NCBI GenBank assembly: GCA_016193065.1
Contig: JACPSX010000280.1
Coordinates: 1-21,709 of the forward strand
DNA: 21,709 nt
Source of the DNA: Candidatus Tectimicrobiota bacterium
GTDB taxonomy: Bacteria; JACPSX01
Direction: 5' to 3'
Shown: positions 4,862 to 21,709 of the stretch, piece after piece
Position numbering within the stretch: position 1 is the first letter of the stretch
Layout: every line of letters begins with the position of its first letter
Translations under genes and position numbers: made by a program
Notes under the pieces: generated by a model
Database searches by the model: none
What the model was told of the DNA's origin: nothing
What the model saw: the letters and a program-made list of their open reading frames with translations, nothing else

Positions 4862-4874
4862 TGCCAACACCTCC

Positions 4875-5099
4875 TCAGGCGCCCCCCGCCTTTAGGGCTT
4901 TCCCCCCCTCTTCCAACTCCGCCTTTTCCTCATGGATCTCCTTGAGCCGGCGGCTGATTTCCTGGAAGAGGGGGCAGGCCACATATTTTTCGTGGTTGCA
5001 AGGGCTCGCAGTCTGCACCCGGGCCTTGGGCACAAACTTGCGGATCGGGTACGCCCTGCAGAACACCACGGTCATCTCGGTGAGAAACGGACACTTCAT
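4875..5099 (-). CDS. Small four-cysteine protein, first gene of the Hyb-like operon
   Basis: The product has 74 residues. Cysteines at 3, 14, 34 and 42 lie in the contexts MKCPFL, VFCRAYP, SPCNH and VACPLF, a spacing that could bind a metal ion or an Fe-S cluster. The last third is a charged, probably helical segment (EISRRLKEIHEEKAELEEG). No signal peptide is visible, so it is probably cytoplasmic. It is the promoter-proximal gene, about 30 bp after the expected start of the sigma-54 transcript. AGGGGG and a GGAGG further upstream provide a ribosome binding site. I recognise no named family and assign no function. Confidence 0.65.
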   Translation of the reverse strand: MKCPFLTEMTVVFCRAYPIRKFVPKARVQTASPCNHEKYVACPLFQEISRRLKEIHEEKAELEEGGKALKAGGA

Positions 5100-5140
5100 T
5101 TGTTTTAACCCCCTTTCCTTGCCTCCCGCTTCCTAAAGAT

Positions 5141-5156
5141 TGCAGGGGATGTGCCA
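5141..5156 (-). promoter_or_regulatory. Sigma-54 (-24/-12) promoter of the minus-strand operon
   Basis: Read on the minus strand the site is TGGCACATCCCCTGCA, with GG and GC separated by exactly ten bases and TGGCAC identical to the -24 consensus. Only the first T of the -12 TTGCA is replaced by C. Transcription should start near 5130, about 30 bases before the cysteine-rich gene. An NtrC-family activator gene lies less than 3 kb away. Confidence 0.75.
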
Positions 5157-5567
5157 AATCCGGTTCACAGGATTGTGATGGAAGTGCGCATTTACAAGGA
5201 GTTAGAAGTCGATCTTCGGAGAAATCGAGAGGTCGGGAAGGGGAGATGATGAGAAATGAAACAGAGTACCGTGTGACGGACGCTGAGGACTGATTTTCAA
5301 TGCATTCAGGATGTGGAAGAACGCTACAGACTTGGTGAGCTTTTCAACAATACCTTTTCGCGAAGCACGACGGAAAAATCTTAATTGCGAATCCGCACGG
5401 TTTCTTTCCCCGCATAGAGGGAAAGATGCGCGTGACCGAAAATTTTCTCGCTTGATCGGACCTATGGTGTGGTTCCTCTATTTTCTTCAGTGGCGGATAA
5501 ACCCATATTGTAAGGTATGTTGGAGCGGGGCGGACCTGTAAGGAGCTTCCGGCTACTGAGATAGCGG

Positions 5568-5580
5568 GTGGACGGTCCAC
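5568..5580. promoter_or_regulatory. Perfect inverted repeat just before the SRPBCC gene
   Basis: GTGGAC-G-GTCCAC is a perfect 6-bp inverted repeat ending 17 bp before the ATG, directly upstream of the ribosome binding site GGAGGG. It could be an operator or an mRNA hairpin affecting translation. The element is short and may be chance. Confidence 0.3.
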
Positions 5581-5597
5581 GTGGAGGGCTGCAAGAT

Positions 5598-6203
5598 ATG
5601 GAGCCGGTGATCATCCGGATCGCGGAGTCGGTGGAAATTGCTGCTCCACCTTCTGCGGTCTTTGCCCTGGTGAGCGATCCTCTGGCCAAGGCCCGCCTCA
5701 ATCCCTTCGTCCAGGTCATTCGGATCGAGCGGGAGGATCCCGGACCGCTATGCGAGGGGAGAATAACCTTCTTGCGTCTTCAGAAAGGCACGAGAATCTT
5801 CGAATACCGCACGCGCTGCCGCGCGCTGGAACCTGACCGCCTGCTGGAGAACCAGGCCGAACTCCCCACACTGTTCCGCGTCCGAGTCGAACTGGAGCCG
5901 ATCCCGGGGGGAACCCGCCTTACGCAGCGCGAGGAGTGCGAGGTCAGGGTTGAGATGCTGGAGGGATTACCGGTGCCCCGCCGGGCGGAGCGTGCCTGGC
6001 AAACCATCAAGATCCTCGGCCTGGTCCTTCCGGTTCTGGCGCGGGAAACCTATGCCTTGATTCTGAAAGAACGAACCGACACTCTCCGGGAGACCATGGG
6101 GCGGGAACTCCAGGTCTGGCTTCAGGCGATCAAGCAACACCTGGAATCTCCGGGAAGGGGAGTTTCAACACCGCAACCGGAAGCAGCAGGAGAACAAACG
6201 TGA
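5598..6203 (+). CDS. SRPBCC (START/Bet v1-like) family protein
   Basis: The product has 201 residues. The N-terminal half carries the typical pattern of this helix-grip fold: SVEIAAPPSAVFALVSDP near residues 10-27, then alternating beta strands (IRIEREDPGPLCEGRITFLR and later LEPIPGGTRLTQREECEV). The end is a long amphipathic helix. The fold binds hydrophobic ligands, and neither ligand nor reaction can be told from sequence. ATG 5598 follows GGAGGG by nine bases; a GTG at 5568 would add ten residues without a ribosome binding site. No signal peptide is seen. It stands between the divergent operon and the sensor kinase, and a link to either is only positional. Confidence 0.7.
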   Translation: MEPVIIRIAESVEIAAPPSAVFALVSDPLAKARLNPFVQVIRIEREDPGPLCEGRITFLRLQKGTRIFEYRTRCRALEPDRLLENQAELPTLFRVRVELEPIPGGTRLTQREECEVRVEMLEGLPVPRRAERAWQTIKILGLVLPVLARETYALILKERTDTLRETMGRELQVWLQAIKQHLESPGRGVSTPQPEAAGEQT

Positions 6204-6242
6204 CCGGTACAGAGAAAATGCCCTGTTCACCCCCTCCCTGCT

Positions 6243-6263
6243 CCTCCCCCGTCGTGGGGGAGG
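6243..6263. other. Strong hairpin after the SRPBCC gene
   Basis: CCTCCCCC and GGGGGAGG form a perfect 8-bp stem around the loop GTCGT, 40 bp after the SRPBCC stop codon. No T-run follows, so it is not a classical intrinsic terminator, but it may stop or stabilise the upstream transcript. Confidence 0.4.
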
Positions 6264-6335
6264 TAGGAAGGGGGGAGTTGCCGTGCGTTCCATTTCAACT
6301 TATCGCAATATCGAAGCATTTTTATTTTCCTTGGG

Positions 6336-6383
6336 AAATCCCCCCTCCTCCCCCCTTTTTAAAGGGGGGAGGAGGGGGGATTT
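6336..6383. repeat. Near-perfect 48-bp palindrome of C-run and G-run arms
   Basis: The left arm reads AAAT-C6-TCCT-C6-TTT and the right arm is its exact complement, giving 23-bp arms separated by only two bases (TT). Such AAATCCCCCC-type palindromes are, from general knowledge, common dispersed elements in Desulfobacterota and related genomes. The right end carries a TTTT, so the RNA could act as a terminator between the SRPBCC gene and the kinase. Confidence 0.75.
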
Positions 6384-6414
6384 TCTTGAGTGGGGGGGGA
6401 TTTGCATGATGCAC

Positions 6415-6445
6415 GGGTGGACACCCGCTCTGCGGGTACCCGGGT
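6415..6445 (+). repeat. REP-like hairpin element, copy A
   Basis: GGGTGG(A)CACCCGCTCTGCGGGTACCCGGG contains the hairpin ACCCGC-TCT-GCGGGT at 6423-6437. The same element, on the opposite strand and with a compensating base-pair change, occurs at 10069-10098. It lies in the spacer before the sensor kinase gene. Confidence 0.6.
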
Positions 6446-6487
6446 CCATGATAACTGAGAGGTTCTGACCAGTAACGGGGGATCTGC

Positions 6488-7975
6488 ATGTCGATTCGGT
6501 TCAAAATGATTCTGGGGATCGGTTCGATCCTGCTCCTGGTGATCTTCGTCTATGCGATCCTGGCCTTTAAGACCCAGGCAGGCCATCTGATGAACATGTC
6601 CAGACGTGAGGCGGAATTGATGGCTGCGCTGGTGGAACGGGCGATTTCCCGGGCCATGGTAGGAGGAAAGGTCAAGGAGGTTCAGGCCACGCTCGAACGG
6701 ATCGGTGAGGATCCGGAGTTGGCCGGGATCCGGATCGTGGACCCCCGGGGAATCATCGCCCGCTCCAGCAGAGCCGAGGAGGTAGGAGGACCCCTGGCAC
6801 AGGGAAAACGACTCGTGGAGGGAATGGGTCCCGTCTTTGATTATCGAGAGCAGACGGTGGGGATCTTCCGTCCTATACTGAACGGCCCTGAATGTTACAA
6901 ATGCCACTCGATCAACCAGAGGATTCTCGGATTCCTGAACGTCAGTGTCACCTTTCCGAGCATTGATTCGGAGCTGGCCAGGCAGTGGACGCTCATGATT
7001 CTCTCGACCGTCGCCGCTCTTGTGGTGGCTGGCGCGCTGATCGCCTTGTATTTCACGTTAGTACTGGGCCGGCGGATTGATGCCATTTCTCAGACCATGA
7101 GCCGGGTGGAGACGGGAGACCTTACGGCCAGGGTCATGGAGAACGAGCGGGATGAGCTGGGGCGCCTCGGCAAGAGCTTCAATGCCATGGTGGCCCGGCT
7201 GGCCGATGTCCGGCGGCAACTGGAGAGTCGCCACGAAGCGGAGATCCGGCGAGCTGAAGACCTGGCCTCTCTCGGCAAGATGGCGGCCGGGATCGCCCAC
7301 GAAATCAACAACCCACTGGCCGGCATGCAAAACTGCGTCAGGACCCTCCTGAAGGGCACCAGGGACAAGGAGCAGAGGATCCAGTACCTCACAATGCTCA
7401 AAGAGGGCTTGGACCGCATCGGCCGGACGGTGGGGCAACTCCTGGGTTTCGCCCGTGAATCCAAACCCCAGCTCACCCGGATCGATCTTTCCCCTCTCCT
7501 CCGACGCTCCCTGGCTCTTTTGGAGCACGAGCTGGCGGCCCGCAAGATTTCCTGCTCTCTTTCCACGGATTCCGGCCTTCCGGCTCTCCTCGCCGACCCC
7601 CACCAGATCGAGGAGGTTCTCCTGAACATCCTGATGAACGCCGTAGAGGCAATGCCGGATGGTGGAGCCCTCGCGGTCAGCACCGGCCTGCGGGAATGGG
7701 CGACGGGTCCCTTCATCGAGATCCGGGTCACGGACACGGGAGTCGGAATCTCTCCCGAGCAACTGCCGCGCATCTTCGACCCCTTTTTCACGACCAAGGA
7801 AGTCGGAAAGGGGACCGGCCTGGGGCTCTCGGTGAGCTACGGGATCATAAGGGCTCACGGGGGTTCCATTGATGTCAAAAGCGAGTTAGGGAAAGGGACC
7901 ACGTTTACGGTGGCCCTCCCCGTGGGAGGGGAAGGAGACAACCATGCGCCACCGCATCCTCCTGGTGGAAGATGA
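6488..7975 (+). CDS. Membrane sensor histidine kinase with periplasmic heme c site
   Basis: The product has 495 residues. Transmembrane helices at about 8-28 and 168-192 enclose a periplasmic domain of about 140 residues, which contains one heme c motif, CYKCH at 136-140, in the context FRPILNGPECYKCHSINQ. A HAMP linker follows (about 190-244), then the HisKA helix with the phospho-accepting His271 (GIAHEINNP), the N box NILMNAVEA (380-388), DTGVG (416-420), PFF (432-434) and GKGTGLGL (441-448). It is an NtrB-like kinase that probably senses redox state or a heme ligand through the c-type heme. Its last 32 bases overlap the response-regulator gene, indicating a coupled two-component pair. The ATG at 6488 is preceded only by a weak purine-rich site. 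Confidence 0.9.
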   Translation: MSIRFKMILGIGSILLLVIFVYAILAFKTQAGHLMNMSRREAELMAALVERAISRAMVGGKVKEVQATLERIGEDPELAGIRIVDPRGIIARSSRAEEVGGPLAQGKRLVEGMGPVFDYREQTVGIFRPILNGPECYKCHSINQRILGFLNVSVTFPSIDSELARQWTLMILSTVAALVVAGALIALYFTLVLGRRIDAISQTMSRVETGDLTARVMENERDELGRLGKSFNAMVARLADVRRQLESRHEAEIRRAEDLASLGKMAAGIAHEINNPLAGMQNCVRTLLKGTRDKEQRIQYLTMLKEGLDRIGRTVGQLLGFARESKPQLTRIDLSPLLRRSLALLEHELAARKISCSLSTDSGLPALLADPHQIEEVLLNILMNAVEAMPDGGALAVSTGLREWATGPFIEIRVTDTGVGISPEQLPRIFDPFFTTKEVGKGTGLGLSVSYGIIRAHGGSIDVKSELGKGTTFTVALPVGGEGDNHAPPHPPGGR

Positions 7976-9287
7976 GCCCATCCTCCGGGTGACTTTGTCC
8001 AATGACCTTTCCGAGGAAGGGTACGAGGTCACACCCGCCTCAGACGGCGCAGAGGGGCTTGCCCGGATCCGGGAGCGGTCTTTTGATGCGGCTCTCCTGG
8101 ACTTAAAGCTACCGAAGGCAGATGGGCTCAGCTTGCTCCAGAGCTTTAAGGCCGCAAATCCCCAGGGGCTCGCGATCATGATGACCGCCTACGGCACCAT
8201 CCAGTCGGCCATCGCGGCCATGAAAGCAGGGGCCACGGACTACCTCCTGAAGCCTTTCCCCACGGACGAGCTCCTCGTGCTTCTGCGTGGCCTGCTGGCC
8301 CAGCACGCCGTTCTGTCGGGAGAGAGAACTAAGCTGCCCGGACTCCGGCAGTTCGGAGATCTCATTTACGCCAGCGAAAAGATGGCCCGGGTCTGCGACC
8401 TCATTGCTACCGTGGCGCGCAGCGATGCCACCGTTCTGATCCAGGGAGAAACAGGCACGGGTAAGGAGCTGGTCGCTCGTGCCATCCATCAACAGAGCGG
8501 ACGGCGAGCCCAACCGCTGATCCCCGTGGCTTGCGCTGCCATCCCCGAGACCCTTCTGGAAACGGAGCTGTTCGGCCATGAGAAGGGCGCCTTCACGGGA
8601 GCCATTCGGGAGCGCAAGGGGCGCTTCGAACTGGCCCATCGGGGGAGCCTCTTTCTGGACGAAGTCGCCGATTTAGGACCTGCAGTTCAAGCCAAGCTTC
8701 TGCGGGTGCTCCAGGAAAAAGAGTTCGAGCGGGTCGGAGGGACGCAGACCATCAAGGCCGATGTCCGGCTCATCTCCGCCACCCGCAAGCGGCTGGAAGA
8801 TGAAGTCGTGGCGGGCCGGCTGCGCGAAGACCTTTTCTATCGCCTCAAGGTGATCACCGTCCTGCTTCCCCTACTGCGGGAGCGCAAGGAGGACATCCTC
8901 CCGCTGGCTGCGCATTTCCTGGAGAAGTACAGTAGACCACTGGGGAAAGACGTCCGTGGGTTCAGCTCGGAGGCTTGCCGCCAGCTTCTTGCCTACCACT
9001 GGCCCGGCAATATCCGGGAGCTGGAGGCCACCGTCCAGCGGGCAGTCACTTTGACGAAAAACACGATTCTCACCGCGGAGGACCTTTCCTTTGAGGTCGG
9101 TTTGACTCCCACCGACAAGACAAACGTCCCGGCTCACCCCCTCACCGACACGGTCCGGGAGGCCGAGCGGCGATACCTCCAAGAGGTCCTGCAAAGTGTC
9201 GGAGGCCAGCGGAAGCGGGCCGCGGAGATCCTGGGGATCAGCCGGAAGACCCTCTGGAAGAAAATGAAGCTGCTCGGCATGGAATAA
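7944..9287 (+). CDS. NtrC-family sigma-54-dependent response regulator
   Basis: The product has 447 residues. The receiver domain (about 4-118) carries the acidic pocket EDE, the phosphorylation site Asp53 and Lys103. The AAA+ domain shows Walker A GETGTGKE (168-175), the sigma-54 contact loop GAFTGA (215-220), Walker B SLFLDE (235-240) and the REDLFYRL sensor region. A Fis-type helix-turn-helix ends the protein (GGQRKRAAEILGISRKTLWKKMK, the last 26 residues). The ATG at 7944 has AAGGAG upstream. It is the partner of the heme kinase, and all parts needed for activating sigma-54 promoters are intact. Likely targets are the promoter at 9451-9466, whose upstream sites begin 39 bp after this gene, and perhaps the one at 5141-5156. 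Confidence 0.95.
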   Translation: MRHRILLVEDEPILRVTLSNDLSEEGYEVTPASDGAEGLARIRERSFDAALLDLKLPKADGLSLLQSFKAANPQGLAIMMTAYGTIQSAIAAMKAGATDYLLKPFPTDELLVLLRGLLAQHAVLSGERTKLPGLRQFGDLIYASEKMARVCDLIATVARSDATVLIQGETGTGKELVARAIHQQSGRRAQPLIPVACAAIPETLLETELFGHEKGAFTGAIRERKGRFELAHRGSLFLDEVADLGPAVQAKLLRVLQEKEFERVGGTQTIKADVRLISATRKRLEDEVVAGRLREDLFYRLKVITVLLPLLRERKEDILPLAAHFLEKYSRPLGKDVRGFSSEACRQLLAYHWPGNIRELEATVQRAVTLTKNTILTAEDLSFEVGLTPTDKTNVPAHPLTDTVREAERRYLQEVLQSVGGQRKRAAEILGISRKTLWKKMKLLGME

Positions 9288-9325
9288 CCCCAGTCGATCT
9301 CTCTCATTTCCCCTCTCGGGAGCGC

Positions 9326-9341
9326 GTTACCGTACGGTAAC
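9326..9341. promoter_or_regulatory. 16-bp perfect palindrome, probable enhancer site 1
   Basis: GTTACCGTACGGTAAC is a perfect palindrome. Its right half continues into CGGTAACACTTGTCCCC (9335-9351), which recurs downstream at 9366-9382. It lies about 110-125 bp upstream of the -24 box, the usual place for NtrC-type dimers. Confidence 0.65.
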
Positions 9342-9382
9342 ACTTGTCCCCTCCATGTTCCCGATCGGTAACTGTTGTACCC
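9335..9382 (+). promoter_or_regulatory. Tandem activator-like sites, 31 bp apart
   Basis: CGGTAACACTTGTCCCC at 9335-9351 and CGGTAACTGTTGTACCC at 9366-9382 match at 14 of 17 bases. Their 31-bp spacing is about three helical turns, so two activator dimers would lie on the same face of the DNA. Binding by the activator encoded just upstream is inferred. Confidence 0.6.
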
Positions 9383-9450
9383 GATCCCTCCCGACCGCCC
9401 CTTGGCTGTAAGAGCCCTCTTTCTCCACCCTTTTCCCCGGTTCATCCAAC

Positions 9451-9466
9451 TGGTACGGCCCTTGCT
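9451..9466 (+). promoter_or_regulatory. Sigma-54 (-24/-12) promoter of the plus-strand gene series
   Basis: TGGTACGGCCCTTGCT has GG and GC exactly ten bases apart and a consensus -12 TTGCT; only one base of the -24 TGGCACG differs. The start site should be near 9478. Paired upstream sites and the adjacent activator gene support it. Confidence 0.8.
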
Positions 9467-9602
9467 GTGGGGAAAAAGGGCGGGACAAAGGCAGGAATGT
9501 CCCGAAGGGATAGGAGTGATGATTTTCGCAGCATCCGCCTTGATGAAACGGGGCACGGGCGATGCTGCTGCCGGTTTCCAGTAACCCGATGGAGAGAATT
9601 CC

Positions 9603-9890
9603 ATGAAACAAAAGATGGTTTCCATCTGCCTGGCGGGAATTTTTGTGTCCGGGCTGATTTTCATCCCGTGTCTGGCGCAGGCCGCGAAGACCCAAGAGAC
9701 CTCCTTCATGAATCTCCTGGGCCAGGCGCAGAAGGAAGAGAAAAAGCCGGAGAAAGCACCGAAGAAAAAAGCAGGGGAGGTAGAAAAGAAGAAGGAAACC
9801 CTGGAAAAGGAAAAGAAAAAAGACAAGGAAGAAAAGGAGAAGGAAAAGGAAGAAGAGGAAGAGCCCAGCTTGAGGCCATCGAAGTGCTGA
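9603..9890 (+). CDS. Secreted Lys/Glu-rich low-complexity protein
   Basis: The product has 95 residues. Residues 1-28 form a Sec signal peptide, with likely cleavage at AQA-AK. A short linker (TQETSFMNLLGQAQ) is followed by about 45 residues made almost entirely of Lys and Glu with a few Asp, Ala and Pro. Such sequence tends to form an extended charged single helix or remain disordered. The protein ends in a lone Cys, and no lipobox is visible. The ATG follows GGAGAG by six bases. It is the first gene after the sigma-54 promoter, so it should be strongly co-regulated with the downstream enzymes. I recognise no family; a periplasmic scaffold or ion-binding role would be guesswork. Confidence 0.75.
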   Translation: MKQKMVSICLAGIFVSGLIFIPCLAQAAKTQETSFMNLLGQAQKEEKKPEKAPKKKAGEVEKKKETLEKEKKKDKEEKEKEKEEEEEPSLRPSKC

Positions 9891-9920: not shown

Positions 9921-10071
9921 CCTTAATCCGAAAAAAAACCAACCTGGTTGATCCGTGCCGTTGGCCCGCAGGTCCTGACACCCGCCAGGCGGGTACCGGG
10001 TCGCCTCCTCGAACCGCGCTCCGTCACCCTGACGAGGGTCCCACTTTCGCGCGGCTCTACGGAGGCATCCC
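9921..10071 (+). repeat. Long direct repeat, copy 1 (about 150 bp)
   Basis: It shares long near-identical blocks with 16304-16437: TAATCCGAAAAAAAA, CAACCTGGTTGATCCG, GCCGTTGGCCCGCAGG, GGGTCGCCTCCTCGA and CGTCACCCTGACGAGGGT followed by CCCACTTTCGCGCGGCTCT and CGGAGGCATCCC. This copy has about 18 extra bases near 9977-9997 containing a small ACCCGCC/GGCGGGT hairpin. It begins 31 bp after the stop codon of the Lys/Glu-rich gene. Confidence 0.85.
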
Positions 10072-10098
10072 GGGTACCCACAAAGTGGGTGCCCACCC
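10069..10098 (-). repeat. REP-like hairpin element, copy B
   Basis: On the minus strand it reads GGGTGGGCACCCACTTTGTGGGTACCCGGG, matching 6415-6444 except at a few bases. The stem changes from ACCCGC/GCGGGT to ACCCAC/GTGGGT, so pairing is kept. It abuts the end of long repeat copy 1. Confidence 0.6.
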
Positions 10099-10129
10099 GC
10101 AGGCGAACAACGAAAAGGAGTTGAATCAG

Positions 10130-12196
10130 ATGAGCAAAGGCAACCGAGTCTCCCGACGAAGCATGCTGAAATGGTCCATGGGCTCTTTGGCCGCCCTTCC
10201 CTTTGCCGGCAGCCTTTTAAGAGCGGGACAGGCTGCCGCTCAGTCGGGCGCGCAAAGCGTCCCCCCAGGCAAAAAAACCAAGGTTCTCGTGCTTGGTTTG
10301 GACTCCTGCGACATGGAGCGCCTATTGGAGTGGGTGAAGGAAGGAGAACTCCCCACTTTTCAGAAACTGATTCAATCAGGTGCCTACGGGACTTTCGAAA
10401 ACATTTTCCGCGGGATGTCCGTGGATGCCTGGGCCGCATATTTGACCGGAGTCGGGCCCGGCCAGAACAATTTCTTCGGGGCTCACCCCTGGAAGGTTTA
10501 CGACAAGTGGGCCAGCCAGACTTCGGGGATCAATCGCTTTTATCGAATGCACGTGGCCACGATCCCCTTCATGCTGGCGGAGGCCGGGGTTAAGGTGGGA
10601 ATGTGCGGGTGCGCCATGACCTGGCCACCGGAACGCTTGCAGGGCGGCTTCATGATGTCGGGTAAGGGATCTCCCGGGCTGGGCGACGATCCGGACTGCA
10701 AAGGGCACATTTACTACACCCAGGAGAAACACGCAGCAGCCAAGCCGCTCAAGACCCAAATTGAATTTGTGGATGGCAATGTAAATACCTCCATCCGTTA
10801 TCACGGCATGGAAGTTCTCCTCCACCTCACCCTGAACTCACTCACCAACACGGTGACCATTGCCTACGAAGATCAGAAGGTGACCTTGAGGGAAGGCGAG
10901 TGGTCCGGCTACATGCCCATCAAGTTTCCGAACGGCCGCCGCGGTGTGATCCGCTGGAAACCCGAGCGCCTGGATGCCGCCGGCGGAGAGCTTCAGCTTT
11001 ACCGCTACAAGCTTCTGCAGGACCCCAGCGCGGAGCTGGACCACGACCCGATCAATTCCTTCTTCGACGGAGCCTGCGTGCCTACGGACCAGTGGACCTA
11101 TCCTGCCGCCCTGCAGAGAGAAGTCTTCGACGCCGTGGGATATTACCGGACACCCAATCTCCCCTTCGAGTATGACTATTCCTCATTTGTCGGGTTTGTC
11201 CAGGAAGAAGAGACCCTTCTCGAAGACGCCTATGACGCAACGCGAGAGCAGAACAGGATCGTGAAGTGGCTCCTGCAGAACAAGGAATGGGACTTCTTCT
11301 GGTTCTCCAACATGCCCTACGACCGTCTTAACCACAACATGGTTCGGATCAAGGGTAATCCGGACTGGTCCCCGGAGTACGAGAGAAAGTACGGCAACGG
11401 GAAGGTGATGAAGGACTTCACCAGGTTCATCGACAGCGAGCTGGCCGACCTCATGAAGATCCTTCCCAGGGACACCTACGTGGTGATCATCTCCGACCAC
11501 GGCTGGGGTCCGGTGGAGGCCGAGTTCCAGCCCAACTCCTGGCTCAAGGAGTTGGGGCTCCTGCACGTGAAGCCGGAGGTGGAGGGCAAGACCCGGCGCT
11601 ACTACTACCCGGAGGATATCGACTGGAGCCGGACGAAGGCCTTTTCCGCGGACAATCCGGGGATCTTTATCAACCTGAAGGGGCGCGAAGAGAACGGAAT
11701 TGTCCGGTACGCCGAGTACGAAGGGCTCAGAGACACCATTATCGAAGAACTCAAAAAGGTCAAACATCCCGATGGCAGCCCGTTCATCTACAAGGCCGAC
11801 CGGGTGGAGAACATTTACCCCAAGGGGAGCTACGGATGGTATGCGGGGGACATCCAGTTCTGCGGCACCCGGGACTCCTCCGGCTACAAGCTGCCGGGGC
11901 CCAATGACGGCCTCTACCAGATCAACTGGACGGGGTTCGGGTACCGGGACAGGATATGGGATCATCCCCGCAGGCACTTCACGGCCTGGCACGGCAACGC
12001 GCTCACCACGTTCGTCATGACGGGCCCGGGCGTGAAGAAGAACGCCGATGTCTCCGAGAACGGCCACATGTTGAACGTCTTCCCGACCATCATGCACATC
12101 TACGGCCTGGTGCCGCCGCCGAATTTCGAAGGGCGCATCATGTATGAGGTATTCGACCCGAGCTCCCCGCTGGCCAAGAAAAAGGAAGCAGTATGA
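10130..12196 (+). CDS. Tat-exported alkaline-phosphatase-superfamily enzyme (phosphodiesterase/pyrophosphatase type)
   Basis: The product has 688 residues. It begins with a Tat signal (VSRRSMLKW, then a hydrophobic stretch to about residue 36). The metal and nucleophile set of the superfamily is visible: Asp58 (LVLGLDS), Ser97 in GMSVDAWAAYLTG as probable nucleophile, Asp398 and His402 (YDRLNH), Asp456-His457 (ISDHGWG) and His621 (TAWHGN). Ser97 aligns with the formylglycine site of sulfatases, but the CxPxR motif is absent, so a phosphate ester is more likely than a sulfate ester. About 280 residues separate the nucleophile region from Asp398 and include a beta-rich insertion. ATG 10130 follows AAAAGGAG; a longer frame from 10085 would run through the repeat. 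It overlaps the oxidoreductase gene by four bases, hinting at a shared periplasmic task. Confidence 0.85.
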   Translation: MSKGNRVSRRSMLKWSMGSLAALPFAGSLLRAGQAAAQSGAQSVPPGKKTKVLVLGLDSCDMERLLEWVKEGELPTFQKLIQSGAYGTFENIFRGMSVDAWAAYLTGVGPGQNNFFGAHPWKVYDKWASQTSGINRFYRMHVATIPFMLAEAGVKVGMCGCAMTWPPERLQGGFMMSGKGSPGLGDDPDCKGHIYYTQEKHAAAKPLKTQIEFVDGNVNTSIRYHGMEVLLHLTLNSLTNTVTIAYEDQKVTLREGEWSGYMPIKFPNGRRGVIRWKPERLDAAGGELQLYRYKLLQDPSAELDHDPINSFFDGACVPTDQWTYPAALQREVFDAVGYYRTPNLPFEYDYSSFVGFVQEEETLLEDAYDATREQNRIVKWLLQNKEWDFFWFSNMPYDRLNHNMVRIKGNPDWSPEYERKYGNGKVMKDFTRFIDSELADLMKILPRDTYVVIISDHGWGPVEAEFQPNSWLKELGLLHVKPEVEGKTRRYYYPEDIDWSRTKAFSADNPGIFINLKGREENGIVRYAEYEGLRDTIIEELKKVKHPDGSPFIYKADRVENIYPKGSYGWYAGDIQFCGTRDSSGYKLPGPNDGLYQINWTGFGYRDRIWDHPRRHFTAWHGNALTTFVMTGPGVKKNADVSENGHMLNVFPTIMHIYGLVPPPNFEGRIMYEVFDPSSPLAKKKEAV

Positions 12197-14385: not shown

Positions 14386-15065
14386 TGGCCCGTGAAATGG
14401 AACGACTGATTGTTTTCCACGCCGATCGGTGCATCAGTTGCCACTCCTGCGAGATTGCCTGCCAGATGGAGAACGATGCTCCTCCCGGCCTACGCCTGCG
14501 ATGGGTGCAGGACTTTGAAGAGGGGTATTTCCCCGGGGCGAGGATCTATTTCATCTCAGCGGCCTGTTTCCACTGTGACGACCCCTCTTGTGTCGCCGGA
14601 TGTCCGGCCGGAGCGCTGATCCGGCGCAACGACGGCACGGTGGTCCATCTTCGGGACAAATGCATTGGCTGCGGATACTGCATCCAGACTTGCCCTTTCC
14701 ATGTGCCGAAATTCAGCCCATCCCAGCATACCGCGCGCAAATGCAGCTTTTGCACCCAGCGTATCGATCGGGGGCTGGAACCGGCATGCGTGGCCAAGTG
14801 CGCCACGAAAGCTCTCGTTTACTACCCGGATGGGAAGCCTCCCGTTCCTCTCCAGGCCTATGGAACGCCGGAAAAACTCCACATGGTCTACAAGCTGGAT
14901 CGGAACCCGGAAAATTACCAGCTACCGCATCCCGTGCCAGGCAATGAGGTGGCCGCAACTCAGTTGTGGAAGTGGCTGATCGGCTTGATCCCCGGTTTTG
15001 GGGTGGCCCTCTGGTTATTTAAAAATGCCGCAGATTCGAATCAGGACGAGGTTCGCCATGACTGA
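14385..15065 (+). CDS. Four-cluster [4Fe-4S] subunit of the molybdopterin oxidoreductase (PsrB/DmsB type)
   Basis: The product has 226 residues with sixteen cysteines in four groups: C16/19/22/26, C61/64/69/73, C93/96/99/103 and C120/123/135/139, a complete four-cluster set. A hydrophobic helix at about 193-211 (LWKWLIGLIPGFGVALWLF) adds a C-terminal anchor not found in PsrB or DmsB of model organisms but known in HybA. No signal peptide is present, so it would be exported with the Tat-borne catalytic subunit. The ATG overlaps the catalytic gene's TGA by one base (TGATG), and the 3' end overlaps the NrfD gene by eight bases, so the trio is translationally coupled. It passes electrons between the membrane subunit and the molybdenum centre. 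Confidence 0.92.
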   Translation: MAREMERLIVFHADRCISCHSCEIACQMENDAPPGLRLRWVQDFEEGYFPGARIYFISAACFHCDDPSCVAGCPAGALIRRNDGTVVHLRDKCIGCGYCIQTCPFHVPKFSPSQHTARKCSFCTQRIDRGLEPACVAKCATKALVYYPDGKPPVPLQAYGTPEKLHMVYKLDRNPENYQLPHPVPGNEVAATQLWKWLIGLIPGFGVALWLFKNAADSNQDEVRHD

Positions 15066-15948
15066 AGCAACCTGGGGATCGGCAATCGCCTTTGACCTGT
15101 TTCTGGCCGGCCTGAGTGGGGGGTCATTTCTCTTGGCAGCTTTGGCTTCCGACCAGGACGAGATAGGCTGGGAGGCCTGCGGCAGGACATCCTCTCTTCT
15201 AGCCCCGGCAGCCCTGGCCGCCGGTATGGCCATGCTACTCCTGGACCTGGGCCAGAAACACCGGTTCTGGCAGCTCCTGGTGCGCTTCAACCCGGTTTCC
15301 CCCATGTCCATCGGAACCTGGCTTCTTGCGGCTTTCGCCGTTATTTGTGTGGTGTTCGCCCTTTTCTGGCTGCCGGAGGATTGGAGGCGGCGCATTCCTG
15401 TCGTGGGGAAATGGCCTTTCTGGAGCGACCGGACGTGGCGCGGAAGGTTCGGAATCATCGGCGTGCCGTTTGCCGTGGCCGTCACGATTTATACGGCTGT
15501 CCTGTTGTCCGTAACTTCCATACCCCTGTGGCGGAATTATCTGCTGCCGCCCGTTTTCTTCTTTTCCGCCCTGGCCACGGGTTTTTCCGGCGGGGTTCTT
15601 CTGAGCGTTCCCTGGCCAGCGAAAATCCGGACAAAAGATCTTTCCCGCCCGCTGGAATTCATCCGGAAAGTCTTCCGGATCATTCTCCCATCTCTATTGC
15701 TGACCTTGGTGTTCTTCATGGCTCTCGTCCCCGGCAAGGTGGAGGAGAAAAACGTTTTCGGAGCGTTGGTAGGAGGGTGGACGGGAGCGCTGTGGGGGGG
15801 AGGAATCGGTTTAGGGATCGTTTTGCCCTTGATTCTCTGCCTCTCCAGGAAGCGCTGGTCGATTCTCCGTGCCGTCACCATTTTCGCCACAGTCCTGATC
15901 GGAGGACTGATTTTGCGCTGGGTTCTCGTGGTGGCCGGTCAGATGTAA
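15058..15948 (+). CDS. NrfD/PsrC-family membrane subunit
   Basis: The product has 296 residues and about eight hydrophobic spans, beginning with TWGSAIAFDLFLAGLSGGSF, which is typical of NrfD-family N-termini. The length matches PsrC- and PhsC-type subunits that take electrons from or give them to membrane quinones. ATG 15058 lies inside the end of the Fe-S gene and removes an unlikely basic N-terminal extension. It completes a PsrABC-like set with the two genes before it. Confidence 0.88.
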   Translation: MTEATWGSAIAFDLFLAGLSGGSFLLAALASDQDEIGWEACGRTSSLLAPAALAAGMAMLLLDLGQKHRFWQLLVRFNPVSPMSIGTWLLAAFAVICVVFALFWLPEDWRRRIPVVGKWPFWSDRTWRGRFGIIGVPFAVAVTIYTAVLLSVTSIPLWRNYLLPPVFFFSALATGFSGGVLLSVPWPAKIRTKDLSRPLEFIRKVFRIILPSLLLTLVFFMALVPGKVEEKNVFGALVGGWTGALWGGGIGLGIVLPLILCLSRKRWSILRAVTIFATVLIGGLILRWVLVVAGQM

Positions 15949-15981: not shown

Positions 15982-16302
15982 ATGAAACGGAGTGGAAACC
16001 TCAAAGTAGCAGCGATTGGAATCCTGGCTGTGTTTCTCGCGTTCAGCCTGTTCTCTTCCGCCGCGGCGGAAGAGCGCAAGATCAAGACGCTGGATTTGAA
16101 CAAGGCTACGGTGGAAGAGCTGGCAAAAATCCCGGGCCTCAACAAACAACTGGCTCAGGCCATCGTGAATTACCGCGACGAGACGGGGGACATCCATGCG
16201 CTCACCGAGCTTCTCAAGATCAAAGGCATCAACCGGGATCTTTTGAGAAAAATTCAACCTTACGTGAATCTGGAGTCCGTGGGAGGCGATTGCACATGCT
16301 AG
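15982..16302 (+). CDS. Secreted helix-hairpin-helix protein (ComEA-like)
   Basis: The product has 106 residues. Residues 1-29 are a signal peptide. Residues 38-96 hold two helix-hairpin-helix motifs, NKATVEELAKIPGLNKQLAQ and LLKIKGINRDLLRK, separated by YRDETGDIHAL, exactly as in ComEA and related DNA-binding domains. It ends DCTC, with two cysteines. GAGGAGG precedes the ATG. ComEA binds incoming DNA during transformation, but no comEC or other competence gene is here; such stand-alone proteins are common near respiratory genes and their role is unclear. Long repeat copy 2 begins right after its stop codon. Confidence 0.85.
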   Translation: MKRSGNLKVAAIGILAVFLAFSLFSSAAAEERKIKTLDLNKATVEELAKIPGLNKQLAQAIVNYRDETGDIHALTELLKIKGINRDLLRKIQPYVNLESVGGDCTC

Positions 16303-16303
16303 C

Positions 16304-16437
16304 CCTAATCCGAAAAAAAACAACCTGGTTGATCCGCGCCGTTGGCCCGCAGGACCTGTCGCCGGGTCGCCTCCTCGATCCGCGCTACGTCACCCTGACG
16401 AGGGTCCCACTTTCGCGCGGCTCTGCGGAGGCATCCC
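16304..16437 (+). repeat. Long direct repeat, copy 2 (about 134 bp)
   Basis: Same orientation and nearly the same sequence as 9921-10071, lacking about 18 bases in the middle. It starts one base after the TAG of the helix-hairpin-helix gene and ends 26 bp before the ATG of the next gene. An open frame crosses it, but the repeat is non-coding in copy 1, so translation here is unlikely. Confidence 0.85.
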
Positions 16438-16463
16438 CGACGCCACCCGCGGGCCTCAGCCGG

Positions 16464-19361
16464 ATGACCCCGACAGAGAATTTCGGATTGAGGTTAGTCC
16501 TCTCCCCTTCGCGATGGGTCCTGCGCTTTGCAGTGAATGCGTTTCTGGCAGGCTCTCTGATTTTTCTTGTGTGCCCGGCCACGGCGTCTGCGGCGGCGGA
16601 GACCGTCAGGGGCCTTTCCCCGTCCGAGGATGCAACCTACATTCCCGACCTGGGCGGGCTGCAAAACAAAAAAATGCATAACCATTTCGGGCAGGAGCGG
16701 GATCTGCAGGAATGCGTGGTGCTGCGGGGGTCCAGCGTGAAAGAGGGGAAGGTCTCCATCCCTCCGGGAGGTTTGTTCTATGCTTCCAGCTCGCCGGCAA
16801 CCGCCCGGCCGCTGGTCCGGGACCCTTTTCTCGTCCTTGGTGAGGAGGCCTACCTCGTAAAGCTCACCGTTGATAGAGCAGTCAAGACCGATTTCAAGGT
16901 CGACGTGCGTCAAAAGGCCCTCCTGGATCCCTCCGGGTATCGCCTCTGGTATGAATACGCCACCGATCATTACGGGAAACCCTACGGGGAATTCGCCCTC
17001 ATCTCCCCATCCGGCGGCTGGCCCGTGGAAATGCCGATCTCCACGTCCTTTCCGGGGCCCATGAAGGCTCTGGAAACGAAAAGACCCGCCGGCATCACCC
17101 CGCAGTCCAGAGATTTCTATCTCTCGGATACCTATCTGTACGGCGCCACAACGCTGACCGCCAAGAAAGTCGACGAGAAGCAGGCTCTCTTCTCCCGGAT
17201 CGAATATCCGGTGATCAAAGAAGCGGTCTTCTCCCTGGACCGCCCCTCGATCCTCAAAGTCCGCCAGGGGACCTTTCGCTGGTATTGGGGCAAAAGGATC
17301 TACGCGTTCCGAGAAGCGGAAGGAATCCGGGTCGAGGTGCGCAACTGGACCGGGAAAAAAATCCTGGCCCAAAAAATGATCCCACCCGCCACTTCCCAGC
17401 AATACAAGGTCCTTCAGCAAGACGATCTGAGCCTCACCCTGGACGATCTGCACATCGAAATCGTGGTGGATCCTTCCTGGTACAAGGGGTCGGACTATGC
17501 TCCATGGGTGACCGGTGTCCCCTATGACTGGAAGCAGGGAACCGTATCCTTCCGGATCTACGATGACCTGGTTCGCCTGGAGGACGGCCAACCCTGGCCC
17601 AACGATCCCCGCTACCTCGTCCGCCTGGAAGCCGACCTGATGAGCGGGTTTCTCAAGAGAATCACCCTGGAGAATCAGGAAGCGATCATCCTGGATAAGG
17701 ATCACCCGACCTACGCCGGCCCGGTGAAATACTCCGAGATCTGGGACCGGAGATTCTTCAACCTGGTCCTTGGCAAGATTGACAAGGATGTGGTGAAGAA
17801 CTACTACCTTCGCGACTCCATGCTTCGCCGCACCGATAATTTGATTCTCTGGCCCGAAGGCCGCACAAACGTGGACTTTTTCATCGGGAAGAGCGAGCTG
17901 GTCGTCTCCGTGATGGAGGATACCTTCCTGATGCGGCTCGCGGATCCAACCTACGGGGTCCCCGTCGTCCCCTCGAAGTTCGCCTCTTATCCCCCTGTCA
18001 TTCCGACGGCCCGTTGGTTCGCGCCGGACCCCACCTGCGCCTTTGTCCCCAAGATGAAAGGTCTGGTGCGCAAGTTCGTAAGGAACCGGAAGGGGGAGAG
18101 GCTGACGGCCGCCGAGGCCATCGTGATCCGCGGCAGCTACGTCGATTATCGGAAAGGGAAGATCATCATCCCTCCCGCCGGGCTGTACTACTCCTCGCGA
18201 AACAACCGCAACGTCCGCCCCCTGGCCGGAGAGTCCTTTTACCTCCTGGGGAAGCAAATCTATCTGCTGAACAACAAGAGCTATCTCGTGGTCAGAAAGG
18301 ATTTCAGGATCGACAAGTGGGATCAGTTTCCCATGGGGGACGGAAACCTCCTCTTCTGGCAGGACCTTCCCCTGGGAGACGGCACCAAGGCTTTGCGATA
18401 CACGGACTCGGGATTCCTCTGGGATCGCCCGTTGGCTCTGTTGCGCGTCACCAAGTACTCGGGGAATACCTGGGGGGCCAATCTGTTGATGGCGCCGGGT
18501 CTGAAGAGCTATCCGGACCACTCCAGCGACCGCTCCGAGCCGAAGAACTCGGCCGAGCCCTTCCATTACTCCATGCCCCCGTTTGCCGCCGAGGGTGCGA
18601 CCTATCTGATTCCGCGCTGGGTCACACCGAACATGGTGGAAGTGGCGGACATGGGGACGCCGGGGATGGATTGGATTCTCGTATCCTACCAGGAAGCCGA
18701 GAAAAAAACGGTATCCGTGGGGGGCAGTTTCGCCTTTGCAGACTTCCAGCTCCATCTACGCAAGATGGATCCGGGAGGCAAGACCATCCATTTTGCCGTC
18801 CTGGACACATCCGGTGTTCTTTTGGACACGAAAGTTCTGGGCCCCATCACAGGCGAGGTCTACGCCACCCTGCCCCAGTACGGCCCTTCCCGGGAGAAGG
18901 TCATGTTCCAGTTCCAGAACATCCACCTGGAGATCGAGGTCCCGGTGAATTTCCAGGCCGGCAAAGCGACCGTGTATGTGACCGGGGGCGTGATGAAGCT
19001 CGAGCGCGATAAGCCCTGGCCCGGGGACAAACGATTCGTCATGCGGCCGGATGTCTGCGGCCACTGCTACATGCTCAACGAATTCATCCTCGATAATCCG
19101 GAGCCCATCGTTCTCGACGCCGAAAATCCCGTCTACGAGGGGCCCGAAGGATATTTCAAGATCGTGGTCGATGATTTCGACGGGGAAGCGATCAATGCCT
19201 GGCACATCGAGGACAGCGAGGGGAGGAAAACTCCCAATCTGGCCGAGTACCCCCGCAACAACCTGGATGTCATGGTGGGAGTCAATGGGACGACGGAGAG
19301 CTTTCTCCGGAAAACCCTGCTGGAGCGCCTGTCTTACAGGGAGAAGTGGCGCTTGAAGTAA
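16464..19361 (+). CDS. Large secreted protein built of two related halves, function unknown
   Basis: The product has 965 residues. The N-terminal hydrophobic stretch (about 18-45, ending TASAAAET) is a signal peptide. Residues about 84-475 and 552-941 are similar. Paired segments include VSIPPGGLFYASS/IIIPPAGLYYSSR, ARPLVRDPFLVLGEEAYLV/VRPLAGESFYLLGKQIYLL, LHIEIVVD/IHLEIEVP, LEDGQPWPNDPRYLV/LERDKPWPGDKRFVM and AIILDKDHPTYAGP/PIVLDAENPVYEGP. The pattern is beta-rich. The second half alone carries CGHC (865-868). I recognise no family; it may be a periplasmic or surface binding protein. The ATG at 16464 is chosen because the upstream frame lies in a repeat; its ribosome binding site is weak, and TTG or GTG starts a little further in are possible. 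Confidence 0.75.
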   Translation: MTPTENFGLRLVLSPSRWVLRFAVNAFLAGSLIFLVCPATASAAAETVRGLSPSEDATYIPDLGGLQNKKMHNHFGQERDLQECVVLRGSSVKEGKVSIPPGGLFYASSSPATARPLVRDPFLVLGEEAYLVKLTVDRAVKTDFKVDVRQKALLDPSGYRLWYEYATDHYGKPYGEFALISPSGGWPVEMPISTSFPGPMKALETKRPAGITPQSRDFYLSDTYLYGATTLTAKKVDEKQALFSRIEYPVIKEAVFSLDRPSILKVRQGTFRWYWGKRIYAFREAEGIRVEVRNWTGKKILAQKMIPPATSQQYKVLQQDDLSLTLDDLHIEIVVDPSWYKGSDYAPWVTGVPYDWKQGTVSFRIYDDLVRLEDGQPWPNDPRYLVRLEADLMSGFLKRITLENQEAIILDKDHPTYAGPVKYSEIWDRRFFNLVLGKIDKDVVKNYYLRDSMLRRTDNLILWPEGRTNVDFFIGKSELVVSVMEDTFLMRLADPTYGVPVVPSKFASYPPVIPTARWFAPDPTCAFVPKMKGLVRKFVRNRKGERLTAAEAIVIRGSYVDYRKGKIIIPPAGLYYSSRNNRNVRPLAGESFYLLGKQIYLLNNKSYLVVRKDFRIDKWDQFPMGDGNLLFWQDLPLGDGTKALRYTDSGFLWDRPLALLRVTKYSGNTWGANLLMAPGLKSYPDHSSDRSEPKNSAEPFHYSMPPFAAEGATYLIPRWVTPNMVEVADMGTPGMDWILVSYQEAEKKTVSVGGSFAFADFQLHLRKMDPGGKTIHFAVLDTSGVLLDTKVLGPITGEVYATLPQYGPSREKVMFQFQNIHLEIEVPVNFQAGKATVYVTGGVMKLERDKPWPGDKRFVMRPDVCGHCYMLNEFILDNPEPIVLDAENPVYEGPEGYFKIVVDDFDGEAINAWHIEDSEGRKTPNLAEYPRNNLDVMVGVNGTTESFLRKTLLERLSYREKWRLK

Positions 19362-19387
19362 CCCATTGCCGAAGGGGAATTCGCCTT

Positions 19388-20557
19388 ATGGAACTGGCCG
19401 TGGAAAAAGAACCCATTCCGGAACAGGCCGCGCCCCGGGGAAGATCCATCTGGAGGGCGCTCCCCAGCTTTCGGGAAGCGCGCCCGGGCCTTCTGGCCAT
19501 GCTCGTCATCGCCCTCTTCTGCGAGCTGCCGGGAATTCCCTGGCCCTTCACCATCCACGCTCTGTTGAAATACATCGATGAGGTCCTGCCTCCGATTTAC
19601 GGGAAAGGGCTTTTCGTAGACCTTCTCCACTTCAACTATGTGCTGATTGCTTTGGTCGCGGGGATCGTGATTCGAAACGTCATCGGGGTTCCCAGGAGCT
19701 GGGAGCCCGGCTTGAGCTACAGCTCCGTGTTCATGAACACCGCCATCGTGATGCTGGGCTCCCAGTATCTGCTCCGGGATCTGGTGCGCATCGGAACCGT
19801 GGCGGTGGCGCTCATGGTCGTCTTTGTTTTCGGGGCCGCGGCTCTGGTGATTTTCCTGGGCCGCCTCTTCAGGGTAAACGACGCCCTCACGGGGGTCCTG
19901 GCGGCCGGATTTTCCTCCTGCGGAGTCTCCGCCTCCGTAGCCGCCGCGCCCATCGTGGGCGCCAGGAGCGAAGAGGTGACCTACTCCATCGCCACCATTC
20001 TCTCTTTCGGTCTCCTGTGCCTGTTCACCCTTCCCTACATCGGCAGAGCCCTGGGGATGGAGGATTTCGCCTACGGCATCTGGTCCGCCGTGGGGATTTT
20101 AAACTCCGCCCAGGTCATCGCTTCAGGCTTCATGTACAGCTTTGACGCGGGCAAAGTGGCGGGTTTCGTCAACATCGCCCGGGTCGTCCTGATCCCCGCC
20201 GCCGTCCTGTTCATCGGCATCCTGATCCTCTCCCGGCAGGTTACCCAGGCGAAGATCAACAAGATGCAGGTAATCCGGGAGAAGTTTCCGGTGTTCGTCT
20301 TCGGATTTTTTGCTCTCTGGCTGGCCCGCTGCCTGGGCATGTTCCCCCGCCCCGCCGTGGAAGCGATGAGCAGCGTCATGACCTGGTTCTTCACCCTCTC
20401 CTTCGTCGGGCTGGGGCTCCAGACCAAGCTCGGGGATCTGCGGAAAGCAGGCCTTCACGGAGTCATGATCGGCTACTTGGCCGGAGTGGTCAAAATCCTG
20501 CTTTCCCTGGCCGCCATCATGCTCCTGCTGAAGCTCGGGATGCTGCGAAGAGGTTGA
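19388..20557 (+). CDS. yeiH: YeiH-family transporter (putative sulfate exporter)
   Basis: The product has 389 residues and about ten membrane spans after a polar N-terminus of about 35 residues. Family hallmarks are visible: DALTGVLAAGFSSCGVSAS, SEEVTYSIATILSFG and FVGLGLQTKLGDLRKAG. YeiH proteins (UPF0324) are annotated as putative sulfate exporters; the true substrate is poorly established. ATG 19388 follows AGGGG; the longer frame overlaps the previous gene's end. It is followed by a small membrane peptide and a UspA-like gene with almost no gaps. Its position beside a Psr-like reductase and an arylsulfotransferase suggests export of a sulfur oxyanion, which is inference. Confidence 0.85.
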   Translation: MELAVEKEPIPEQAAPRGRSIWRALPSFREARPGLLAMLVIALFCELPGIPWPFTIHALLKYIDEVLPPIYGKGLFVDLLHFNYVLIALVAGIVIRNVIGVPRSWEPGLSYSSVFMNTAIVMLGSQYLLRDLVRIGTVAVALMVVFVFGAAALVIFLGRLFRVNDALTGVLAAGFSSCGVSASVAAAPIVGARSEEVTYSIATILSFGLLCLFTLPYIGRALGMEDFAYGIWSAVGILNSAQVIASGFMYSFDAGKVAGFVNIARVVLIPAAVLFIGILILSRQVTQAKINKMQVIREKFPVFVFGFFALWLARCLGMFPRPAVEAMSSVMTWFFTLSFVGLGLQTKLGDLRKAGLHGVMIGYLAGVVKILLSLAAIMLLLKLGMLRRG

Positions 20558-20560
20558 GAG

Positions 20561-20731
20561 ATGGCTGAAACGAACGAACAAGAAACGGGTACGGTCCAGG
20601 ACCTGAAAGCCGTCGAAGCCGACGCCATCGCCAAGTTCCAGCGGCACCGCGTGGACGACTACGTGGCCATCCTCTTAGGAGTGGGATCAGCTCTGATTCT
20701 GTGGCTGTTCCAGCTCATGGGTTTTTACTGA
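20561..20731 (+). CDS. 56-residue single-span membrane protein next to YeiH
   Basis: ATG at 20561 lies three bases after the YeiH stop codon. The 56-residue product has a polar, acidic N-terminal half (AETNEQETGTVQDLKAVEAD), then FQRHRVDDYVAILLGVGSAL and one hydrophobic helix ending LFQLMGFY. The tight spacing between YeiH and the UspA-like gene (one base between its TGA and the next ATG) supports it as a real gene. It is probably a small partner of the transporter; I recognise no family name. Confidence 0.65.
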   Translation: MAETNEQETGTVQDLKAVEADAIAKFQRHRVDDYVAILLGVGSALILWLFQLMGFY

Positions 20732-20732
20732 A

Positions 20733-21275
20733 ATGAACTCTCGCATCCTCGTCGTGGTGAACTTGAACTTGGAAGATTCCTTTCTGGAGGCCGTTCTGGA
20801 TTGGGCCCGGAAATCCGCCGGCAGCGTCATGGTGCTGCAGATCTTGACTTCCGACCTTTACCACTACGGGCATAACGACCTCCTGGCCGGCGGTCGCGCC
20901 AAGGCCGACTTCTTGCTCCACATCCGCCGGGAGGTCCTGGAAAAGGGGGAATCCCAGGCGGCCAGACTCCTGGCGGGAGCGAGAACCCGGGGGATTCAGA
21001 TCCGTCTCATCCCCGTCGAGACCGAGAACCCGGCCGCGGCGGTCATCGCCGAGGCCAAGAGAGGCTATGACCTCGTTGTCGTTCCGAAAGAACCCAGGAG
21101 GCTATTGCCCCTCTTCCAGAAGTCATTGTTCCACGAGATTCGCGGGAAGGTGGACTGTGAGGTCACGGAAATGGACAATCCGCCCTCCCTAAAAGAGCGC
21201 AGATCTCCACAGAATCTTATCATCAGCGAAAGGAGGGAAAGGAGGGATGTGTATGGTGACCTGAAGAAAAAATGA
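20733..21275 (+). CDS. UspA-like universal stress domain protein
   Basis: The product has 180 residues. It shows the alternating strand-helix pattern of the HUP fold: ILVVVNLNLEDSFLEAVLDWA at the start, VMVLQILTSD, then ARLLAGARTRGIQIRLIPVE and VIAEAKRGYDLVVVPKE. The glycine-rich ATP-binding loop of ATP-binding Usp proteins (GxxGxxG) is not apparent, so it is probably of the non-ATP-binding kind. The last 35 residues are a basic, charged tail. It is cytoplasmic and coupled to the small membrane protein and YeiH, so a role in regulating the transporter is plausible but unproven. Confidence 0.65.
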   Translation: MNSRILVVVNLNLEDSFLEAVLDWARKSAGSVMVLQILTSDLYHYGHNDLLAGGRAKADFLLHIRREVLEKGESQAARLLAGARTRGIQIRLIPVETENPAAAVIAEAKRGYDLVVVPKEPRRLLPLFQKSLFHEIRGKVDCEVTEMDNPPSLKERRSPQNLIISERRERRDVYGDLKKK

Positions 21276-21314
21276 AAGCTGGGGTTGGGGGGCATTAGAC
21301 ACGGAGGTAAGGAG

Positions 21315-21709
21315 ATGAAAAGATCAAATCGATTTCTGCTTATAGTCCTTGTGGCTATGGCAATTCCATTGATCTTCTCCGCTGCGGCTTTTGGGTGGCC
21401 CTCGGTCTACCCGACGGGGACCACCATCCACAATCCGGAGAAGGCGTTCAACGGCTACACGTTGATCGCTCCCCTGGACGCGGGCAAGCCCACGGATGAG
21501 TTCTACGCCAACCCCGGAACCGCGTATCTGCTCGACATGAACGGAAACGTGGTCCATCAGTGGAAGCTCCCCTTCCCGCCGGGGCTGCACGCCAGGCTGC
21601 TGCCGAACGGGAACCTCTTGTTCGCCGGCAGGAGCGGCAAGGTGGATCCTCCCGATCGGCCCGGCGTGGGTAAGTACCCCATGGGCGGCGCCGCCGGGTG
21701 GCTCATCGA
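21315..21709 (+). CDS. Secreted arylsulfotransferase (ASST) family protein, 3' end outside the window
   Basis: Only the first 131 residues are in the window. Residues 1-28 form a signal peptide (KRSNRFLLIVLVAMAIPLIF ending AAAFG). Then come segments typical of the ASST family: GTTIHNPEKAFNGYTLIAP, GTAYLLDMNGNVVHQWKLPF and HARLLPNGNLLFAG, the first blades of the beta-propeller. ASST enzymes move a sulfuryl group from aryl sulfates to phenols in the periplasm through a catalytic histidine, which would lie beyond this window. GGAGGTAAGGAG precedes the ATG. Many ASST-like proteins in environmental bacteria have no proven substrate. Confidence 0.75.
   Translation, partial: MKRSNRFLLIVLVAMAIPLIFSAAAFGWPSVYPTGTTIHNPEKAFNGYTLIAPLDAGKPTDEFYANPGTAYLLDMNGNVVHQWKLPFPPGLHARLLPNGNLLFAGRSGKVDPPDRPGVGKYPMGGAAGWLI

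Follow-up and report, generated by a model that had tools for sequence, protein, structure and literature searches.

A conserved molybdopterin oxidoreductase cluster and a candidate tandem-enhancer sigma-54 sulfur regulon beside a heme-c kinase pair in a Candidatus Tectimicrobiota genome

Introduction

Polysulfide and thiosulfate reductases of the PsrABC/PhsABC type, members of the CISM family, combine a TAT-exported bis-MGD subunit carrying an FeS cluster and a Cys ligand with a four-cluster FeS subunit and an NrfD anchor. We analyzed a stretch of 21,709 nucleotides (the window; contig C274) from a 2.9-Mb, 86% complete MAG of Candidatus Tectimicrobiota and found a three-subunit oxidoreductase, MoABC, of the same build; unlike PsrABC/PhsABC, it is accompanied by genes for a phosphodiesterase, an arylsulfotransferase (ASST), YeiH, a helix-hairpin-helix protein (HHH) and a large protein that we call Big. 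Bacterial PAPS-independent ASSTs belong, like the one encoded here, to the PF05935 family, yet the predicted ASSTs of this system occur in several copies inside a Mo-oxidoreductase cluster. A second operon, on the left side of the window, shares with the Hmc- and HybAB-type quinol:cytochrome c modules a c7 cytochrome, an FeS protein and a HybB/HmcC-like NrfD protein, but differs from them in its two GcvH-like proteins without the lipoyl Lys, its small four-Cys leader gene and the lack of a hydrogenase. The Cbc4/CbcSTU-type quinol:cytochrome c modules are comparable in the same respects.

Between the two operons lies a regulatory gene pair. As in the window, NtrC-type activators preside over electron-transfer operons in the sigma-54 regulome of Desulfovibrio vulgaris (PMC4641369), but the text of that study mentions neither dsr nor sulfite and describes no tandem dsr enhancer with a heme-c kinase pair. 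YeiH, for its part, confers sulfite resistance on Salmonella (PMC12880088). We propose, with a probability of roughly 0.55, that the right half of the window holds the first operon of a sigma-54-dependent dissimilatory-sulfur regulon, that the putatively heme-sensing pair of the window activates it through palindromic enhancers, and that the left operon is separate. Little has been described of how dsr is regulated, and the analysis supplies a specific enhancer, a candidate activator and a putative heme sensor that lend themselves to direct tests; the right module offers a concrete conserved gene set for a candidate periplasmic sulfur reaction.

Results and Discussion

The Right-Hand Genes Form a Conserved Cluster

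The right module runs on the plus strand and begins with KE, a secreted Lys/Glu-rich small protein ending in ..PSLRPSKC (9603..9890), whose relatives have an HHH domain and the same C-terminal tail. The next gene codes for a phosphodiesterase of the alkaline-phosphatase superfamily with a TAT-type export signal (10085..12196); its PF01663 match (60.8 bits, cut-off 23) and the residues read from the sequence (Ser112 and the metal ligands D73, D413, H417, D471, H472 and H636) place it in type I of the superfamily, and a PDB search with it gave no match. MoA, a molybdopterin oxidoreductase catalytic subunit with a TAT-type leader (12193..14385), is followed by a four-cluster ferredoxin-like FeS subunit with 16 Cys (14385..15065) and an NrfD-type membrane quinone subunit (15058..15948; PF03916). 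The remaining genes encode HHH, a secreted ComEA-like protein ending in ..GGDCTC (15982..16302), the secreted 963-aa Big (16464..19361), a YeiH-family membrane protein (19346..20557; PF03601), Usp, a weak universal-stress-type protein conserved in the cluster (20733..21275), and the ASST (21285..21709), which is cut at the contig end. The ASST reading frame is completed on contig C65, where the continuation matches PF05935 at 87 bits against a cut-off of 24.2; the fragment in the window alone gave no match. A dispersed intergenic repeat lies at about 9940-10090 and 16290-16470 of the window, the second copy shows up in translation as a spurious N-terminal extension of Big, and matches to translated copies lie on contigs C252, C182, C215 and C201.

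All right-hand genes named in the initial annotation (a Lys/Glu-rich protein, a phosphatase, a Psr-like reductase, YeiH and an arylsulfotransferase) are thus present, although that list omitted Big and took in an incomplete ASST, and the label of the reductase needs qualification. The subunits have the PsrABC/PhsABC-type architecture, with Molybdopterin, Molydop_binding and Fe4S4 domains in the TAT-exported A subunit, four FeS motifs in B and NrfD as C; MoA has FeS cysteines at 59/62/66/94 and a putative Mo ligand at Cys187. However, MoABC scored below every curated equivalog cut-off, including those of PhsA (243 of 694 bits) and TtrA, and "Psr-like" therefore holds in a generic sense only. 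With annotated plasmid relatives, among them PhsA, MoA shares 27-29% identity. It was also considered as a formate dehydrogenase and rejected, as it reads GDACIGN at Cys187 rather than C/UHxP and does not reach the Fdh-alpha cut-off.

Scanning 84,980 species genomes with MoA returned one locus (L053), in the deltaproteobacterial MAG Meg19_1012_Bin_441 (G145). The comparison set contained 0 other members of the phylum of the source MAG. The order of the genes at this locus is that of the window, KE-AP-MoA-FeS-NrfD-HHH-Big-YeiH-Usp-ASST, and identities range from 46 to 83% where whole genes can be compared, KE (46%, L053 5043-5336) and the phosphodiesterase (83%) marking the two ends. Rearranged right-type clusters are found in G437 and G191, each with at least two ASSTs plus YeiH and HHH/acidic-tail proteins, and fragments in G177. 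In G437, MoA is 60% identical and a PhoD-like phosphatase replaces the phosphodiesterase. The same cluster encodes a fusion of a HybB-like membrane protein with an octaheme cytochrome of the tetrathionate-reductase family (L077 5631-8948, minus strand). The right-hand genes do form a conserved cluster, and a literature search for the gene combination found nothing relevant. The sigma-54 kinases beside the clusters of L053, G437 and G191 are alike along their length and differ from the window kinase in the sensor domain, so the window sensor is not the usual one for a right-type cluster. The L053 kinase carries SBP_bac_3 and PAS domains, and we found no convincing orthologue of it in the source genome.

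Paired Palindromes Suggest a Link Between the Cluster and a dsr Operon

As initially annotated, a heme c kinase and an NtrC-type activator stand between two sigma-54-type promoters. The left one, TGGCACATCCCCTGCA (5156->5141, minus strand), and the right one, TGGTACGGCCCTTGCT (9451-9466, plus strand), each deviate by one mismatch from TGGCAC-N5-TTGCW, and none of 200 shuffles of their own intergenic regions reached either score; in other genomes, too, both modules have comparable sites upstream. Between the regulator gene and the right promoter we identified two palindromes 31 bp apart, GTTACCGTACGGTAAC at 9326..9341 (-125 from the -24 element) and GTTCCCGATCGGTAAC at 9357..9372 (-94), with the consensus GTTACC-N4-GGTAAC. 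We searched the source genome for this palindrome, allowing up to one mismatch and using the reversed motif as the control. Apart from a single match on C188 that lacked a promoter, all matches lay on C65, C9 and the contig of the window; the reversed motif gave few.

Paired palindromes with a -24/-12 element occur at eight promoters of the source genome, at about -121 and -90 from the -24 element and with a spacing that is 31-32 bp in most cases and 22 bp in one, the fixed arrangement at several promoters that characterizes a tandem-enhancer sigma-54 regulon. Scored against random slots, whose 99th percentile is 9.7, their sigma-54 sites reach or exceed that value, except for one at 9.6. Besides the right module, the promoters on C65 precede a second ASST with a radical SAM gene (1398), tatA (4290), a cytochrome c gene (14514), the Mo-oxidoreductase operon MoA2-NrfD-MoA3-FeS-TorD (15178) and a CN-hydrolase/Tct transporter operon (23528); those on C9 precede a second yeiH (10511) and the dsr operon dsrL-dsrA-dsrB..dsrN-dsrC..dsrM-dsrK (8454). 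On C9, DsrA (589 bits, curated cut-off 393) and DsrM (507 bits, curated cut-off 300) exceed their thresholds, DsrC, DsrN, a DsrL-like protein and the YeiH paralogue are also encoded, and DsrB was read directly. The gap between dsrB and dsrN holds an 83-aa winged-helix-like ORF with no DsrD match.

The regulon contigs appear to be contiguous with the window. The first 141 nt of C65 match the window end exactly (21569-21709), and the end of C65 is 98% identical to the start of reversed C9 over 336 nt. With overlaps at both ends of C65, the window, C65 and C9 are probably one island of ~50 kb, although in an 86% complete MAG such joins are drawn from overlaps.

The presence of the same enhancer pair before a second yeiH and before the dsr operon strengthens the initial guess of a sulfur-oxyanion or sulfate-ester pathway. 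The right modules of G145 and G437 are not linked to dsr on the same contigs; with no dsr beside the module in these two genomes, the sulfur link rests on the regulon of the source genome together with YeiH and ASST.

The Window Response Regulator Is the Best Candidate Activator

The sensor histidine kinase (6488..7975, plus strand; HAMP-HisKA-HATPase in Pfam) has a short N-terminal periplasmic sensor with a single CxxCH (CYKCH), a putative heme c motif, and relatives with CxxCH sensors were found in other genomes. The response regulator (7944..9287, plus strand) is of the NtrC type, with receiver, sigma-54 AAA+ and Fis HTH domains in Pfam and the HTH helix ISRKTLWKKMKLLG. The enhancer pair begins 39 nt past its stop codon.

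Evidence on the activator comes from a stand-alone Fis-type HTH ORF of 92 codons that abuts the dsr enhancer on C9 (L126 8539-8817, minus strand). Among 16 sigma-54 activators of the genome, the closest HTH to this ORF is that of the window regulator (63%, 53 bits), the runners-up reaching 58% or less and 45 bits, and the helix ISRKTLWKK is common to the two. Of the activators compared, the window regulator is therefore the best candidate for driving the sulfur regulon, an assignment drawn from HTH similarity and position. In a tree of response regulators, the window protein had no firm placement.

The regulon could instead be real but governed by another protein, either the GAF-GAF-sigma-54 activator encoded at 9703-11991 of C65 or a lost module-specific regulator, with the heme pair unrelated to it. 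The GAF activator does lie inside the island, and elsewhere the regulator of the right module is paired with the SBP_bac_3-PAS kinase that lacks a convincing orthologue here. Yet the GAF activator's helix, LTRSQLYTRLKRFDL, is unlike that of the HTH ORF beside the dsr enhancer, which the window regulator's helix resembles, and the enhancer pair directly follows the window regulator gene; we consider control by another activator rather unlikely.

The Left Operon Is Probably a Separate Module

The left promoter was initially said to drive a Hyb-like complex without hydrogenase, and the genes downstream, all on the minus strand, agree with this. The first encodes a small four-Cys protein (MKCPFL.., 4875..5099) conserved in other left modules, where the gene is single or doubled. 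It is followed by a GcvH-like protein without Lys at the lipoyl position (4208..4870), a small hypothetical protein conserved in left modules (3849..4247), a further GcvH-like protein, likewise without the Lys (3055..3939), a HybA/HmcB-like FeS protein (2300..3058), a HybB/HmcC-like NrfD membrane protein (1089..2291) and a c7-type triheme cytochrome (710..1126). The operon thus extends to position 710, beyond the 4875-21709 interval initially described. We considered and rejected a Hyb-type hydrogenase, as the ORFs of the window include no NiFe large or small subunit, and glycine cleavage H proteins, as the GcvH-like proteins score 65-79 bits against a cut-off of 117 and by eye lack the lipoyl Lys.

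The GcvH-like protein of the window was matched in 140 of 247 genomes, and GcvH, HybA-like FeS and HybB-like NrfD proteins occur together in most of 13 loci. At six of these (L095, L098, L099, L100, L105 and L106), a nearby kinase matches the window kinase over most or all of its length, and CxxCH is present in all of those kinases but that of L100. In many genomes the left module has its own heme kinase and regulator and is not accompanied by the right module.

The initial annotation placed both modules around one heme-sensing pair, which would run them as a single redox system. The position of the pair between divergent sigma-54 promoters, the related heme kinases and NtrC regulators that come with left modules elsewhere, and a HybA/HybB-like pair (fused to an octaheme cytochrome) within the right-type cluster of G437 are all consistent with this. 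But the left promoter has no GTTACC-N4-GGTAAC palindrome upstream, and a search of the window for a left-type enhancer gave a single weak GTTGAA half-site, read by eye. Left-type regulators in other genomes carry the helix IDRVTLYNKIKKY rather than ISRKTLWKK, and a 74% orthologue of them is encoded behind another kinase on contig C215 of the source genome. In G145, moreover, the two modules lie on separate contigs, each by sigma-54 activators. Since the left promoter lacks the palindromes and many genomes carry the left module with a kinase and regulator of its own, a two-module unit is not supported, and joint control by one pair seems to us quite improbable. The co-occurrence that the initial annotation proposed to check holds for the right set (L053, G437 and G191). 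The HTH comparison and the C215 orthologue make the window pair the leading candidate to control the sulfur regulon but an unconvincing one for the left operon, which is probably a neighboring, separately regulated module.

A Candidate Route for Periplasmic Sulfur

In the sulfur-regulon model that we favor, the heme-c kinase would respond to the periplasmic redox state or to a heme ligand and phosphorylate the window regulator, which would then bind the palindromes and activate sigma-54 polymerase. Electron transfer by TAT-exported MoABC would link the quinone pool to a sulfur oxyanion or sulfo-ester in the periplasm; such a compound is our best guess for its substrate given the co-regulation with dsr, itself an inferred step. 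ASST and the phosphodiesterase may process an ester substrate or product, and Big could serve as a thiol/disulfide partner through its CxxC. YeiH would either transport or detoxify sulfite, and Dsr would handle sulfite in the cytoplasm.

The right module might also serve in scavenging or detoxifying periplasmic phosphoesters and sulfoesters, being co-regulated with dsr without taking part in sulfur respiration. A phosphoesterase of some kind recurs in the clusters (a phosphodiesterase here, PhoD-like in G437), as do several ASSTs, and this would fit such a role; a complete quinone-linked MoABC, the TAT signals and a TatA gene in the same regulon suggest respiration instead, and we regard scavenging as unlikely. 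In a more far-reaching version of the respiratory model, dissimilatory sulfur respiration in this lineage, dsr included, would have the heme-c sigma-54 pair as its master switch, and the right module would be an undescribed respiratory route taking sulfur from sulfated or phosphorylated organics via MoABC, ASST, the phosphoesterase and a thiol/selenol carrier of a new family. We offer this as speculation, with the odds leaning clearly against it.

Big Belongs to a Family with Predicted Selenoproteins

The largest protein of the right module, Big, is a tandem duplication of an all-beta unit of ~450 aa with a C-terminal CGHC motif, and some members of its so far unnamed family are predicted selenoproteins. 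It has no family match in Pfam or NCBIfam, and the AlphaFold model of its repeat unit, all-beta with a mean pLDDT of 48.5, was too poor for a fold search. A search of 395 genomes of the L053 phylum found matches in 9: full-length in G145, G437 and G191, fragments in G177 and single-unit relatives in five; 144 other bacterial genomes gave 0 matches.

In six genomes (G340, G197, G316, G426, G227 and G581), single-unit relatives carry an in-frame TGA precisely where the CxxC has its first Cys (L069 9339-10673, L070 9620-11011, L071 10042-11373, L072 9980-11311, L073 9115-10479 and L161 1097-2440). A strong tRNA-Sec was found in all five TGA genomes examined (G340, G197, G316, G426 and G227). SECIS folding after the TGA gave a good hairpin with a GGUCU loop in L073 and weak folds in the others, and constraint at synonymous sites after the TGA was not above background. 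We found no entry corresponding to the Big family in a 2026 selenoprotein catalogue (PMC13188914). The single-unit relatives, as distinct from the window protein, are a probable new selenoprotein family with a UxxC motif.

Small secreted proteins beside Big-family genes share a conserved C-terminal Cys motif (PSKC, CTC or PDEGC), as at 9603-9890 and 15982-16302 of the window and at L067 7254-7640, L068 10326-10733, L069 8770-9129 and L071 9482-9790. A distant homologue of the Big unit is encoded on pFER4 of Paracoccus ferrooxidans, in an island (L109 2600-17440) that also has selA, selB, trxB and genes for a cysteine desulfurase, TusA and DsrE.
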